From contig NAVB01000235.1 of NCBI GenBank assembly GCA_002179805.1, positions 1 to 64,000 on the forward strand: a DNA stretch of 64,000 nt, in the 5' to 3' direction. The stretch comes from Acanthamoeba lenticulata (Eukaryota; Discosea; Longamoebia; Acanthamoebidae). Shown in pieces: positions 36,656 to 44,193 of this stretch. Numbering within the stretch: the stretch's first letter is position 1; every line of letters begins with the position of its first letter. The notes beneath the pieces are model-generated. The model was given only the letters and a program-made list of their open reading frames with translations. It had not been told where the DNA came from and did no database searches. Made by a program: the position numbers and the translations under genes.

Positions 36656-37411
36656 ATGGCGCACTACATCCCTCCTATCAACTGGGGCATGGTGGAAGAG
36701 GACCTGTACCGGTCTGGGCAACCAAATGTCCTCAATTTTCCTTTCCTTGAGCGTCTCAATCTTAAGACTATCATTTGGCTCGCACCCGACGATCCTACTC
36801 AACAATTGTACGATATGTATTCATGACTTGACTTTGGCTTGGCTGGCACTCATTTCGGCACGTGGCAGCTACAATTTTGTAGATGACCAAGGCATTGAGC
36901 TGATCCATCTTGGCATGGACTCGCAACTTCGCATCTCGAACCCTTGGAATCCTATATCGGAGGTGCTGCCTGTTCATCTCGAGCAGAGGCGTGCTTATCG
37001 TGTTGCCGCTCATCTGCCGCTTCTGCACTCTCCAGGACACAGTCGTTTCGGCGTTGAAGCTCATTCTAGACCCGAAGAACTACCCTCTCTCGGTGATGTG
37101 CAATCTGGGTCGGCATCGGAGCGGTAGCCCTGTCCTCTCCCTGCCCTTTTTCATTTGCTGATGGTGTTTCAGGGACCGTGATCGGTTGCATGCGGAAGCT
37201 GCAACGATGGAACCTCACCTCCATCTTTGAAGAATATCGACGACACGCCGGCTCCAAGGTGCGTGCCTAGTTCGCGTGCGCACATGTATCTTCATCTTCG
37301 TCTCACGCAATTCTGCCACCGTCACAGGTTCGTCTGCTGAACGAGCAATTCATCGAGCTCTTCGACACGGACCTAGTGGGCATCCCAGAGAACCCGCCCA
37401 AGTGGCTCTAA
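36656..37411 (+). CDS. Siw14/PFA-DSP-type phosphatase
   Basis: Exons from [11 protein letters not shown] to PPKWL. The N-terminal [17 protein letters not shown] and [17 protein letters not shown] match plant and fungal atypical dual-specificity phosphatases (Siw14/OCA1). The catalytic Cx5R loop is [16 protein letters not shown], with CNLGRHR carrying the nucleophilic Cys and Arg; it is completed across an intron. Homologues remove the 5-beta phosphate from inositol pyrophosphates. It is cytosolic, with no membrane segment. Start 36656 lies 65 bp after the NMNAT-like stop. Confidence 0.88.
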
Positions 37412-37753: not shown

Positions 37754-40700
37754 ATGGATGGCTCATGCGAGGAGGAGGCGAGGAGGAACAGCTTTAGGGC
37801 GTTGGCCAAGAGGCTGATGCAGGAAGAGGATGATCTACGTAGCGCTTCCCCACTTTGTGCACACTCGCACCACCTATCTCACGTTCACATTGATTGTCCA
37901 GGTCTTGTGCGCGCCTTCTTGCAGAACTACCGCATCCTTGATGTGAAGTCTTCACTTCTACTTCGCCTCTGGATGGATGAATATCCTTACTGCCTCCACT
38001 CCCCACCCCAATCCAATTCAATTTATCCAATTGATGCAAATCTTTATGTTAAATCCATTTGATCCTTGACCGTTGTTACGTTCTTGCTTGTGTCGCGCGC
38101 CAAGTCCGAAGGCGCCGGTGACGGAGGTGCCTCAACGCCCACGAAACAACAGAGGTACGATCTGGTTCTTGTGCTGGCAGCCACAGACTCGTCTCTTATT
38201 CGAGCAGGATGGTTGTCTTTCTGCGAGAGTGGCTGGACAAGCATCACGTCTCCTTTGGCCGGGCAGACCTGTCGCAGCTCTTCCAGTTGACGCAGCGGGT
38301 ACGTTGGTGGTTAGGCAATGTCGTAGGAAGTCTCATGCTGTCCCTTCCGGCGTTGCCAGCTGGGCACTGAGAGCACGAACGAGTTCAAGCTCTTGTACAT
38401 ACGCAAGAAGTAGTACGGCTGCTTTTCCCCGCTGTGTCTACACGCGCCGCTAGCGGTTGTACTGAACCAGTCGACCTTCTGTATACACTCAGCCACCGAA
38501 CAGGGCTCTCGGCGGTGGCTCTTCCATTTCCGCAGACGGTGGAAGAGAGCATCCCAACACCTTTGTATAGCGATAAAAAGCCGGATAGCATCCAACCCTC
38601 CATATCTTCCTCGTTCCTCGCAACTTCTTCCCACTCTTTCGCTTTGACATCAACCGAGAGCTTGCCGACCGGGCGCGGCAAGGTACCGTACCTACGAAAG
38701 TCTTGTTTAATGTTTACTAACTGGCGTTTCGCTAGGACTTTGAGCTTCTACAACTGCCACCGGCCACGCTCGCCGCACAATTGACTGTCTTCGAGTTTAA
38801 CATCTTCCGCCGGGTGCGGCCCGAAGAGTTCTTTAAGCAGCAATGGAAGAAGGAGAGCAAGATCACGCACTCGCCCAACATCACCGCCATGATCGAGCAG
38901 TTCAACCGGGTATGCACCACCACCGCAGCTGCTACATAGTGAAGTGAAGTGAACTTATGAACGTCGCGATTCACGGCACAGGTGGGCTATTGGGTGGCAA
39001 CCGAGGTCGTACAATCCAAGGACCTCAAGGAGCAGTTGGCAACTGTCAAGAAGTTCATCCAGGTGGCGGGCGGTACTGGCGCTGATCATATTCCTTGTCT
39101 TCACCGATTGTGATTGACCGTTCGCCAATGTTCGTACGCACATAGAGTGTTTGGCGCTGGGCAATTTCAACTCGTTCATGGAGATCCTGTCTGGGTTGAA
39201 CAACTCCTCTGTGCAGCGACTCAAGCGGCTGTGGGAGGTACGAACTGGCTTTGATTTTTTTAATGAATACTACGTTGAGAGCGGGCTGACGGAATGGCGT
39301 GTCTTCTCTCCGTGGTGAAATGCAGAACCTATCTGCCAAATATGAGGCCAAGTTTGCAGAGCTGGAGGCCATCATGGGCGCGAAGCAGAACTTCCGACAG
39401 TATAGACAGGAGCTCAACTCGCGGCCGCTTCCCGTTCTGCCCTACTTTGGTGAGGCCAGCTCCTCTCTTGCTCCTCTGTATCCGGTTTCTCAATTTAGGC
39501 CCTTGACACGGCACAGGGCTGTACCTACGCGACTTCACCTTTATATACGATGGCAATCGGACCTATTTGGCGGACAACTCGATCAATTTCGACCTACTCA
39601 GCCTCCTCTACGAGCGCACACAGGACATCGCCAAGTATCAGAGCGTCAGCTACCCCATTCCTGAAGACAGGCTTATACAGCAGAAGCTGCTCGCCCTTTC
39701 TTGCTATGACTCTCATAACGAGGTGCGTCACAGGCACTCAAATGTTGCTGCTCATTTCCTCAACCATTGTGGCTTTTCATTTCTCGCGTGCAGGATGAGT
39801 TGTACACCTTGTCGCTCAAAGCCGAGCCCAGCTTGTGGAATATGTTCAGAAAGTGCGTCTCGCTCTACTCTCTCCCCGCTCAAGGGCGTCTGGACTTACT
39901 GTGTTGCAGGTCGGGGCCTGTGCCGACTGATCCGTCACGATCGACCATCGCCTATGAGCCCGAAACGGAAAGCAACACCACACAATCTGTACGTTTGGTC
40001 TCACCTCCCGTTACCTCTCGGGCAAACTCATACCAACTCAACCGCTGGACCGACAGGAGGATGATGACACAGACTCTTCGCTGTCTTCGTCTTTATCGTT
40101 GCTGCCTTCTTCGTCATCTTCCATTTCGATCCCTTTGGCCATTCCCAGCAACGTGCCGCTGCCGCCGCTGCTCTCTCAGTCTGCGTCAGCTATTCCAGTC
40201 ACTCCCGATCTCTCGGCCTCTGATAATGATTTTGCTTCCTCCGCCTCGACAACCTCAACGTTCACGAGCGGCACCATGCCTGCCATCTCCCTTACCTCAG
40301 CTCCCGGCAGCAACAGCAGTAGTACATCCTCGAGCATGACCACTCCCAGTGGTAGCATCAGTCCGAGAAGTACCTCCAGTGAAGGGAAACTGTCCCCGTC
40401 CACCTCGCGGCGCTCTCCTCGATCGACCTCCACTCCGACTCCGCTCAAGACCTCGAAGTGCAAAAACTCGAGCGAGCGCATCGACAGCCGTTCATCCTCG
40501 CCCCGAGAACGATCGTCGGACTCGAGCTTCTGTTCTTCTTCCTCTGACGACCTGTCGCGAATCAGCGACGATGTGCAGCCGGCTCGTGGCCACGACGGGA
40601 GCACCAGCCCTCGCGCTCTGGAATCGCCAGGCCGCGAGAAGATCAGCGGCTTGAGTCGTGAACGTTCTACACGTGAAGGGCGTGAGCGTTCTGGCTCGGG

Positions 40701-43700
40701 AAGTTCTTCGGACAGCAAGCGATCACGCGAGGCACGGTCAGACCGCGACCGGGAGCGTGACCGAGAGCGAGAACGAGAGAAGGACAGGGAAAAAGACACC
40801 CGAGAGCGACGGAAGTCGCTCGGCCGACTCAACGTCGACGCCGCGATCGCCGAAGAACGGCGTTCTTCGCCTCGTGATGGCTCGTCGCCCAAGGGTCTCG
40901 ATCGAAACATCGGCCAGTCGTCGCGCGACGTCCGCGAGAAGGGGACACCTGCAGTAACAGCGCAGGACAAGGACCGCGAACGTGACCGAGATCGCGATCG
41001 GGAGCGGGACCGCGAGTCACGAGATAAGGACCGCGACCGAGAGAAAGAACGGGAAAAGGACTCCAGAGAGAAGGATAGGGAACGCAAGACGCCAGCGGAG
41101 AGGAGGTTGTCTCGCACAGGCGGAACCATTATCGAAGACAAGCGCGACAAGGGGGCGTCGTCGTCGTCGACCTCTTCCCCCTCTCGCCGCCAACAGCGGC
41201 GACACAAGGACGGGCATGATGCGCCTCGCTGCCAGGTCAGTTCCCTTCCTCAACCACACCACAGCAAGAAGCTTGGTGAAGTCTCACCATGATGGGCGGC
41301 AGGGACCCGAGGAGCTCATGGAGCCCATGGCTAAGGCTGAGGCCCTGGTGGATCGTTACTTTGCGCAATGCTACCAGTCGGCCAAGAACGGAACGATTGA
41401 GGTCTGCGGCGAACGCTATCTCCTCTTCCGGTACCAAATCTGCTCCCCAGGCCTTTAGCGTTTGGCCAACGTAACGAGTGACATGTGTGTGTATGTGCAG
41501 GGCGGCGGCACTGTCAACCGAGTTCTTCCAGGCGGTCAAGGACAACTTTGGAGACCGGGGCAAGGACTTTGCCTACCAGTTTCTCTTTGACTTTGGCCAC
41601 TCGCTGGGCAAGTCTGATGCCCTTAACTTTGCCCAAAAATCCTCCTGCCCACATGGTACTCGCGAAAGCCTTGCCAGCCCTCTAGACCCATCACGGATGA
41701 ATATTCATCATGAGTTGAATCCCAGGGGTTGATACGACGCTGGCTGGGCCAGTCTACTTTTCCTACACCGGGTGGGCCTTCATCGAGATCCTACAGGCGC
41801 GGTTGGAGCCGGGCGACAGCTTCTTCCTCTACTCAGACCACATCTTCTCCTTTGAGGCCGACGCTTGGACTGCGCCCGGCGCCAAGTCCCTCCTCAGCGT
41901 ATGTTCCGCCATCGCTTGTCCGTTTCCCTGCGCTCAGAACGGTCGTTGATTGCTGACGAAACGTATTGAATGCAGTCAACTGAGAACGCGCCGCGGGGAC
42001 CCATGTGCATCCTTGGCGCCGGCTACAGCAGCGGGTGGGTCTCATCGTGCTTCAACTTCCCGTCGGAGCTGCTCGCGGTGGAGCTCCTGTGCAAGGCCAA
42101 GGGCGACGAGCGCTGCCTCTTTGTCATGGCCACAGAGGCTCGCATTCACGACCACATCTCCCGGTACGCCGCTTGTTCTGCTGACGTCGGAGCTGACCAA
42201 GTCGTCCCAGTGGATTGACGTTACCGCAACACATCAGATTTTTTGCAGAGAACAAGCACTTGGCCTCTGGCCACAAGGAGTCCCTGTACATTCCTCAGTT
42301 CCTCTCGACAACGCAGACCTACCTGCCCCGCACATCAACGTCCTCTTCCTCCTCGTCGGGGGACTCAACCGCGGCCAAGCTCCGACGCAAGTTGTCCATC
42401 AAGGGCAAGAGCACCCTTCTTTCAAGCAGCGGCAGTGCGAGCCCAACGCGGTCCGGGACGTCCCGCTCCAGTGGCGAGCTGTCGTCTTCGCCGTCCTCAG
42501 CCGACAACAGCGACGAGCAGCTCCCGCCCAAGCCCATCTTCCCGCCAGATCAGCTTAAGCAGCTCCGCAGCGTGCAGCACAAGATCGGCCGCCAGTTCTC
42601 CAAACTGTTCCAGGAGATCTCGTGCGAGCCGGCGCGGGGCGAGGTGCGGCTCAACAACGAGCGCCATATCTTTGTGCGAGGCAGCTCCATCTCGCTTGAG
42701 TTTGTGGACCTCGTCGAGCGCATGCTGATCGAGCAGCGCGAGGCCGAGACCGCGCGCGAGGGCAGCAAGTCGCGCCGCAGCAGCGCGCCTCGGCAGATCG
42801 ACGCGCGCCTCGTCGGCGATGCGGCCCTGGCTGCCTTTGGCGCCGCGGCAGCCGGTGGCGGTCTTGACTCGGTCCTCGCCAACCAGCAGCAACAACAGGG
42901 TGGTGCTTCCAGCACGGCAGAGGAGCGCGAGCGGGACGAGCTGCGCCGGAATGCCGAGATCTTCACGGCCAACTTCCTGTTTGACTTTTCGTCGGCCATG
43001 GGCAGCAACGACCACCGCGACTTTCTCAACAAGGTCGTCAGCCAGCGAAGCGTCGACATCACCTACCTGGCCTCGCTCTACTCTGCAGCGGCGACCACAT
43101 CCGTCGGGTCGGCTCGGGGCGGCGTGGCGGCCGCCAACCTGGCGCCGTCGATGTTTGCCGATCTGCTCCTGTTTGGCCTGCCGACGGTGATGGCCTACAC
43201 GGGCTGGGGCAGCGTGCGGTTCGACTACGCCACCCTCAGCTGCTCCTTTGGACCTGGGTCCGGCTCTGGCTCGTCGCCGGCTGGCCTCTACGTGCTGTTC
43301 ACCATCGAGAACTCCATGGAGGCATCGGTCTACCTCAAGCAGGCCGAGGCAAGCAGCAAGGGGACGACCTCTCACCACAGGCGGGACAGGGAACACCGTG
43401 ACCGGGACAAGGATAAGGACAAGGACAAGGACAAGGACGGCAACAGCAACAACAATCATCACCATCACCACCAGCACAATAGCGGAAGTAGCGGAAGGAC
43501 CCGAGAACGAAGAGAGCTTCGCACGTCGGCGTGTGTGATGGCGGCGGGCTACGTCAGCGGCTACCTCAACGAGTGCTGGCAGAAGTACTCAGAGGCGGCG
43601 CCCATCTTCTCCTTTGTCAACAAGAGCCGAGGCGCCAGCGGCTTGGCAGTGCCGGCCTCGCTGCAGGCGGTGAGCATGCACGCCGGCCGCTCGGACTCAG

Positions 43701-44193
43701 ACGTGAGTGAGGCGCCAACGATACCAGCGCACGTACCCGAGCTACGGAGGAAGGGCTCCACGATTCTCAGCGCTCGAGGCTTGCGGGACCGAAGCAACAC
43801 ACCCCCAGCCACTCCCCCTCCTGTTTCTTCCTCTGTGGTACCTTCTTTTTCTTCTTCTTCTTCCTCTTCTTACTCATCTTCGTTCATCTTTGTTTTGGTA
43901 TTTTATTTTATTTCGCTACGCGCCACAAGCTGGCCGTGGTGGAGCTGTCGTGCAGGGCGCTGGGACACGACTGCTGCGAGTTCCTGGTGTGCGCGCGGAG
44001 CCAGGTGGAGCGACACGCGCGGGCCTACTTTGAGAGCCGAGGTCGCAGCGCCGCCGCGCTTGCGCAGCAGGTGCCGCTGGTCGAGATCCTCGCCGCCAAG
44101 GACAAGGCCGAGGCCGAGGCTAGCGCCAGCAGCGCCAGTGGCCGAAAGGACAAGAAGGACAAGAGCAGCGCAAGCAGCAAATCGCGCAAGTGA
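37754..44193 (+). CDS. RasGEF protein fused to two V4R domains
   Basis: A very large multi-exon gene. The N-terminal RasGEF-N module includes LVRAFLQNYRIL and MVVFLREWLDKH. The CDC25 catalytic domain (38740-39720) has LAAQLTVFEFNIFRRV, AMIEQFNRVGYWVATEV, LGNFNSFMEILSGLN, LPYFGLYLRDFTFI and NSINFDLLS. Next come a Ser/Thr-rich stretch and a run of Arg-Glu/Arg-Asp dipeptides (about 40680-41110). Exon 41235|41303 then continues in frame into a V4R domain (ILGAGYSSGWVSS, ELLCKAKGDERCLFVMAT) and a second one (MAAGYVSGYLNECW, VELSCRALGHDCCEF). The stop is 44191-44193. V4R is a small-molecule-binding fold related to TRAPP Bet3. The frame of the linker exon would otherwise end at 41290-41292, only 22 bp before the first possible V4R start, so one gene is the better reading. 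The true start may be upstream: 37433-37753 is open and Lys/Arg-rich. Confidence 0.85.

Follow-up and report, generated by a model that had tools for sequence, protein, structure and literature searches.

RasGEF fused to two V4R domains in Acanthamoeba lenticulata: a candidate ligand-controlled Ras-family exchange factor

The forward strand of a 64,000-nucleotide stretch of Acanthamoeba lenticulata DNA (assembly GCA_002179805.1, contig NAVB01000235.1, positions 1 to 64,000; hereafter the window) was found to carry a gene which probably encodes, in one protein, a Ras-family exchange factor with a C-terminal tandem V4R module as small-molecule sensor. The gene structure, the domain order, the recurrence of the fusion (five genes and one EukProt transcript), the predicted fold of the first V4R copy (V4R1) and the zinc-ligand residues are established from sequence or from a structure model; of the ligand-controlled Ras activator originally predicted, the fusion and domain order thus stand, and the ligand control we infer. 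The fusion is real and, apparently, an undescribed architecture which extends the idea of ligand-regulated guanine nucleotide exchange factors (GEFs). No Ras exchange factor with a V4R domain was found in the open-licence literature, in agreement with the original prediction; searches there for a V4R domain with Acanthamoeba, or for RasGEF with V4R, gave zero papers, V4R together with Ras and amoeba gave a single one, to judge by its title a review on algal barcoding, and the word V4R is absent from the available part of the main text of a survey of Dictyostelium RasGEFs (PMC1273635).

Gene structure

Splicing the coding region by hand gave 20 exons (5082 nucleotides, 1693 amino acids; Table 1) which run in a single frame from RasGEF through the linker into V4R, as predicted, with one terminal stop. 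The introns are GT-AG in 18 of 19 cases, intron 2 being AT-AC. The junction at 41235|41303 is in phase 0, also as predicted. With the junction intron (intron 14) unspliced, a stop is reached at 41290-41292 and the next Met in the V4R frame lies at 41318; separate genes would therefore leave an intergenic gap, as had been claimed, of 25 bases by our recount and not 22 bp.

Haplotypes stand as separate contigs in the assembly, so that gene models can be tested by the codon positions at which the two differ. Between the window and contig C1253, 50 exon substitutions were counted by eye, falling 8/6/36 on the three codon positions; exon insertions or deletions (indels) measured 9, 12, 3 and 6 bases, plus 11 at the contig end, and intron indels 1, 2, 3, 5, 7 and 10 bases. 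The exon 14 linker alone held 17 substitutions (3/1/13) and indels of 12 and 3. Read-through of intron 14, also followed by eye, meets an earlier stop in C1253 than in the window. Chance or contamination as the origin of the gene was rejected, since introns interrupt V4R1 and the gene is present in both haplotypes.

Identity of the RasGEF and V4R halves

A Pfam scan of the window protein placed PF00617 well within its cut-off (207 bits against 23.1, E 2.9e-61), and RasGEF_N (PF00618) gave a weak match at the expected place (16.6 bits, cut-off 28.3); of the two predicted blocks, the CDC25 block was therefore confirmed and RasGEF-N matched weakly. The best structural matches in the PDB were 2ije, 'Guanine nucleotide-releasing protein' (2.3e-38), and Rap guanine nucleotide exchange factor 4 (1.7e-33), which we take to be Epac2, with SOS (approximately 1e-28 to 1e-29), RalGPS1 and Cell division control protein 25 as further relatives. 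The window protein is a predicted Ras-family exchange factor whose solved relatives are named as Ras, Rap and Ral exchange factors. A search with the RasGEF region identified 5 relatives among 653 candidates, one of them fused (P0020) and four without a precomputed Pfam V4R entry. One RasGEF relative, P0019 (1297 amino acids, 43-47% identical over the catalytic part), has a low-complexity tail and no V4R match, and its RasGEF_N is likewise under the cut-off (18.9 bits).

V4R1 had database matches down to E 2.7e-46, and a V4R fold was observed in its predicted structure. The second copy, V4R2, was recognised by profile-profile comparison with V4R1 (hhalign, probability 99.9, E 1.8e-31). The patterns GYxSGW and ExxCxxxGDxxCxF, predicted for both copies, are present in V4R1 (GYSSGW and ELLCKAKGDERCLF), with slight departures in V4R2 (GYVSGY and ELSCRALGHDCCEF). 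Of the Pfam families proposed for checking, only PF00617 passed in the window protein itself; PF02830 (V4R) was passed by P0001, which is 81% identical over V4R1 (V4R 43 bits; XylR_N 27.9, also over cut-off), and by P0020 (40.8 bits in two stretches). As regards residue conservation, the zinc ligands Cys, Glu, Cys and Cys are kept in 5/5 V4R1 rows and 3/5 V4R2 rows of the amoeba alignment, the other two V4R2 rows keeping three ligands and ending before the last Cys; the Glu column was placed by what we take to be the MopR ligand. The equivalent glutamate of DmpR is printed as Glu172 (PMC7264223), and would be expected at 174 from the offset of the neighbouring cysteines. Scm3 (13.9 bits against a cut-off of 24.3) and Zip (14.6 against 35.1) also matched weakly, which was taken as chance.

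Recurrence of the fusion

The actophorin of this eukaryotic assembly (48.5 Mb, 1825 contigs) agrees with PDB entry 1ahq, an Acanthamoeba protein, at 132 of 137 residues, which identifies the host as an Acanthamoeba. The assembly was searched, and seven contigs with a V4R match were identified (C213, C1253, C12, C1302, C345, C1176 and C1326), each of which also has RasGEF matches upstream of V4R and in the same orientation. Two pairs, C213/C1253 and C12/C1302, seem to be haplotypes, leaving five distinct genes; that C1326 and C1176 are haplotypes of one gene was rejected, as no blastn match at 1e-10 was found between the fetched stretches. C12 and C1302 are approximately 97.5% alike over the compared stretch. 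In C12, an intron equivalent in place and phase to window intron 12 separates the RasGEF exon from a 796-nucleotide exon which spans the linker into V4R1; once the two exons are joined, one of the three frames is open. The 796-nucleotide exon differs from that of C1302 by 15 substitutions (1/1/13) and one 9-base indel. Linker and V4R1 start lie within one open exon in C12/C1302, C345 and C1326. Some shuffles of these linker exons stayed open (per 300: C12 11, C1302 2, C345 0, C1326 1), so that in GC-rich DNA a long open frame by itself carries no more than moderate weight. C1176 (L049) also carries a fused paralogue, with approximately 900 open low-complexity linker codons after RasGEF and a contig end inside V4R1; it was read by eye, and its linker exon may end before approximately 900 codons.

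Outside the assembly, P0020 is a Trinity open reading frame (ORF) in EukProt, marked complete, of 1300 amino acids, with RasGEF (169 bits) and V4R both over cut-off. Its identity to the window protein is 39% over RasGEF and 35% over the linker end and V4R1, the latter match starting 39 residues before the junction. Given the same order and strand on all seven contigs and this transcript ORF, the pairing of RasGEF and V4R is not chance. A GGTII..KR stretch in the linker, upstream of V4R1, is common to window residues 820-858 and P0020 from residue 669, and could reflect a docking motif or coincidence. A search with the V4R half (proteins of approximately 460-1460 amino acids, 8000 candidates scored) returned eight proteins, seven of them with a kinase domain and the other being P0001; one with the V4R1 region (proteins of 931-2963 amino acids) returned ten, of which nine have a precomputed PF02518 entry and P0018 is named a diguanylate cyclase. 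The latter search missed at least one relative, as P0020 was absent despite its V4R domain and fitting size.

Alternative explanations

If RasGEF and V4R were encoded by two adjacent genes without a fused product, this would account for the start of P0001 at a homologous Met and for the in-frame stop at 41290 when intron 14 is kept. This arrangement was rejected as extremely improbable: P0020 holds both halves in one complete ORF, linker and V4R1 start share single open exons in C12/C1302, C345 and C1326, the pair occurs on 7/7 contigs with a V4R match, and the haplotypes show no conservation of the read-through tail. It is improbable, to a lesser degree, that a shorter V4R-only protein, made by way of an internal start or promoter at 41318, accompanies the fused protein and competes or dimerises with it. 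The P0001 start would suit such a product, but Met is missing from approximately the last 110 codons before V4R1 in C12 and from the last 182 residues in P0020, so the short form could not be general.

Several points weigh against a fused, ligand-controlled exchange factor. P0001 (738 amino acids) begins at the Met matching window position 41318, and its 2900-base contig extends approximately 680 bases beyond the coding part; as GAGGAG directly precedes the ATG at 41318 in the window, this start may be the gene-caller's choice, or it may mark a real short product. The window gene model was read from genomic DNA alone. Both V4R halves of the window protein fall under the PF02830 cut-off (19.3 and 19.1 bits against 31), as does its XylR_N match (20 bits, cut-off 23), and the V4R2 part of the structure model is poor (predicted local distance difference test mostly <50). 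The linkers, ranging from 170 residues in P0020 to approximately 900 open codons in C1176, are unsuited to direct mechanical coupling. Finally, the phenol-contacting histidine of the bacterial sensors (MopR His106) is replaced, so that ligand identity is not transferable.

A real fusion in which V4R is not a ligand sensor and instead places the GEF, as a dimerisation or membrane/vesicle targeting module like Bet3 in TRAPP, is rather unlikely, though the least so of these alternatives. V4R is described as the likely ancestor of Bet3 (PMC2253512). Membership of TRAPP itself was rejected: the Bet3/TRAPPC3 fold match was weaker, PF04051 did not match, with an E limit of 1, any of the three scanned pieces of the window protein, and the TRAPP matches of the assembly sit on other contigs. 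The same three pieces, with the linker (residues 466-858) outside the scan, contained no cyclic-nucleotide-binding domain and no HisKA/HATPase output.

Comparison with known systems

The window V4R1 shares its zinc-ligand residues with the aromatic sensor domains of MopR and DmpR, which, like PoxR, are bacterial enhancer-binding proteins with XylR_N and V4R. The columns of MopR His106 and Trp134, presumably the partners of DmpR His100 and Trp128, hold Phe and His in V4R1, and Met and Ile in V4R2. His100 and Trp128 are the phenol contacts of DmpR, in which the dimeric sensor holds back the output as long as no phenol is bound (PMC7264223). The output of these proteins is an AAA+ domain, whereas that of the window protein is RasGEF, reached through a long linker, and the window protein, unlike them, has two sensor copies. 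Among the V4R signalling proteins of bacteria, most of which are PAS-histidine kinases, six are 36-44% identical to V4R1 (five with a kinase domain, and P0018), and the pocket His and Phe are the same as in V4R1 in the five kinase rows compared. Unlike these, the window protein has no kinase, PAS or receiver domain in its scanned pieces, and comes from a eukaryotic gene with introns inside V4R1.

RasGRP, Epac, and Dictyostelium GbpC, GbpD and RasGEFT/U (the Dictyostelium proteins with cyclic-nucleotide domains) follow the same idea as the window protein, in which a RasGEF-family exchange factor shares its chain with a small-molecule sensor; their sensors belong to an unrelated domain family, and that of the window protein lies C-terminal of the GEF. 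For Epac, GbpC/D and RasGEFU this is described in the survey of Dictyostelium RasGEFs, according to which regulation had not been shown in Dictyostelium (PMC1273635).

Origin of the V4R module

A scan of prokaryotic genomes gave 443 pattern matches, of which 348 encode relatives; by label, the best 80 were mostly Myxococcota, Thermodesulfobacteriota, Bacteroidota and Planctomycetota, with two archaeal metagenome-assembled genomes. A tree was built by a quick method from 90 rows (these 80, five amoeba V4R1 and five amoeba V4R2), the C12 and C345 rows (4/10 of the amoeba rows) being hand-spliced, three of them omitting unsure or inserted stretches and those of C345 being long and partial. The amoeba V4R1 rows grouped together (SH-aLRT 96) beside the prokaryotic rows, and the V4R2 rows formed a separate group (SH-aLRT 100) on a very long branch, which makes their placement unsure. 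This fits one acquisition from bacteria followed by duplication, with a putative donor, order and direction.

Other features

Table 1. Features of the RasGEF-V4R gene (window positions)
Feature	Position	Strand	Evidence
Whole coding region, 20 exons, 1693 amino acids	37754..44193	+	Splice model, haplotype comparison with C1253
Exons 1-5, weak RasGEF_N (REM-like) region	37754..38409	+	PF00618 below cut-off
Intron 2, AT-AC, presumably U12-type (ATATCCTT ... TCCTTGAC ... AC)	37981..38079	+	
RasGEF catalytic domain, residues 202-376, across exons 7-11	38769..39593	+	PF00617, PDB matches
Exon 14, S/R/D/E-rich linker, residues 466-858 (393 residues)	40057..41235	+	
Junction intron (intron 14), 67 nucleotides, GT-AG, phase 0, linker/V4R1 border	41236..41302	+	
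V4R1 with N-terminal XylR_N-like part, residues 859-1104, exons 15-18 and start of 19	41303..42331	+	
V4R2, residues 1175-1646, split by low-complexity inserts, exons 19-20	42542..44049	+	hhalign, zinc-ligand alignment

In intron 2, we take the 5' site ATATCCTT to be U12-type and TCCTTGAC to be branch-like. Its sequence is identical between both haplotypes, and a U12 small nuclear RNA gene is present in the same assembly (C886:9538-9700, 73.7 bits). In A. castellanii, twelve introns were classed as minor by the pipeline of one survey (PMC10639083). The last intron (43838-43929) is pyrimidine-rich and the most variable between haplotypes (18/92 positions differ), and an AATAAA-rich stretch lies directly 3' of the stop. 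Upstream, a gene at approximately 36670-37411 (+; extent by eye) resembles a Y_phosphatase2-family tyrosine phosphatase, as a 56-residue piece from its start matches PF03162 (53 bits).

Proposed mechanism and significance

By analogy with DmpR, the tandem V4R module could control RasGEF in response to a hydrophobic compound. The ligand of V4R1 would be a small compound, hydrophobic or aromatic, enclosed in a pocket where a histidine makes the polar contact. V4R2, whose pocket is aliphatic, would serve as structural partner, and the two copies might pair as an intramolecular pseudo-dimer, much as the DmpR sensors dimerise. The module would keep RasGEF in check or in place until the ligand released or recruited it; given the long linker of varying size, docking, masking or localisation/recruitment is likelier than rigid-helix coupling.

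Ligand-gated exchange factors are already known (Epac, by cyclic AMP), but none with a sensor of the V4R family was found in the open-licence literature. If ligand control is true, a hydrophobic small molecule would act on Ras in the amoeba through a single protein, built with a bacterial-type part, and Ras switches under chemical control would have a natural model. It would also bear on how Acanthamoeba senses bacteria, its formyl-peptide receptor homologues being described as still unidentified in the available part of PMC13359236. The joining of RasGEF to two V4R copies suggests that this amoeba may switch Ras signalling directly via an intracellular chemical. Tentatively, amoebae of the Acanthamoeba kind might have acquired a bacterial V4R module through gene transfer; after its duplication and attachment downstream of RasGEF, the product would have expanded to at least five genes with diverging pockets. 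Their proteins would act as intracellular receptors for small molecules, which may come from engulfed bacteria, and would signal to Ras directly, with no receptor needed at the cell surface.
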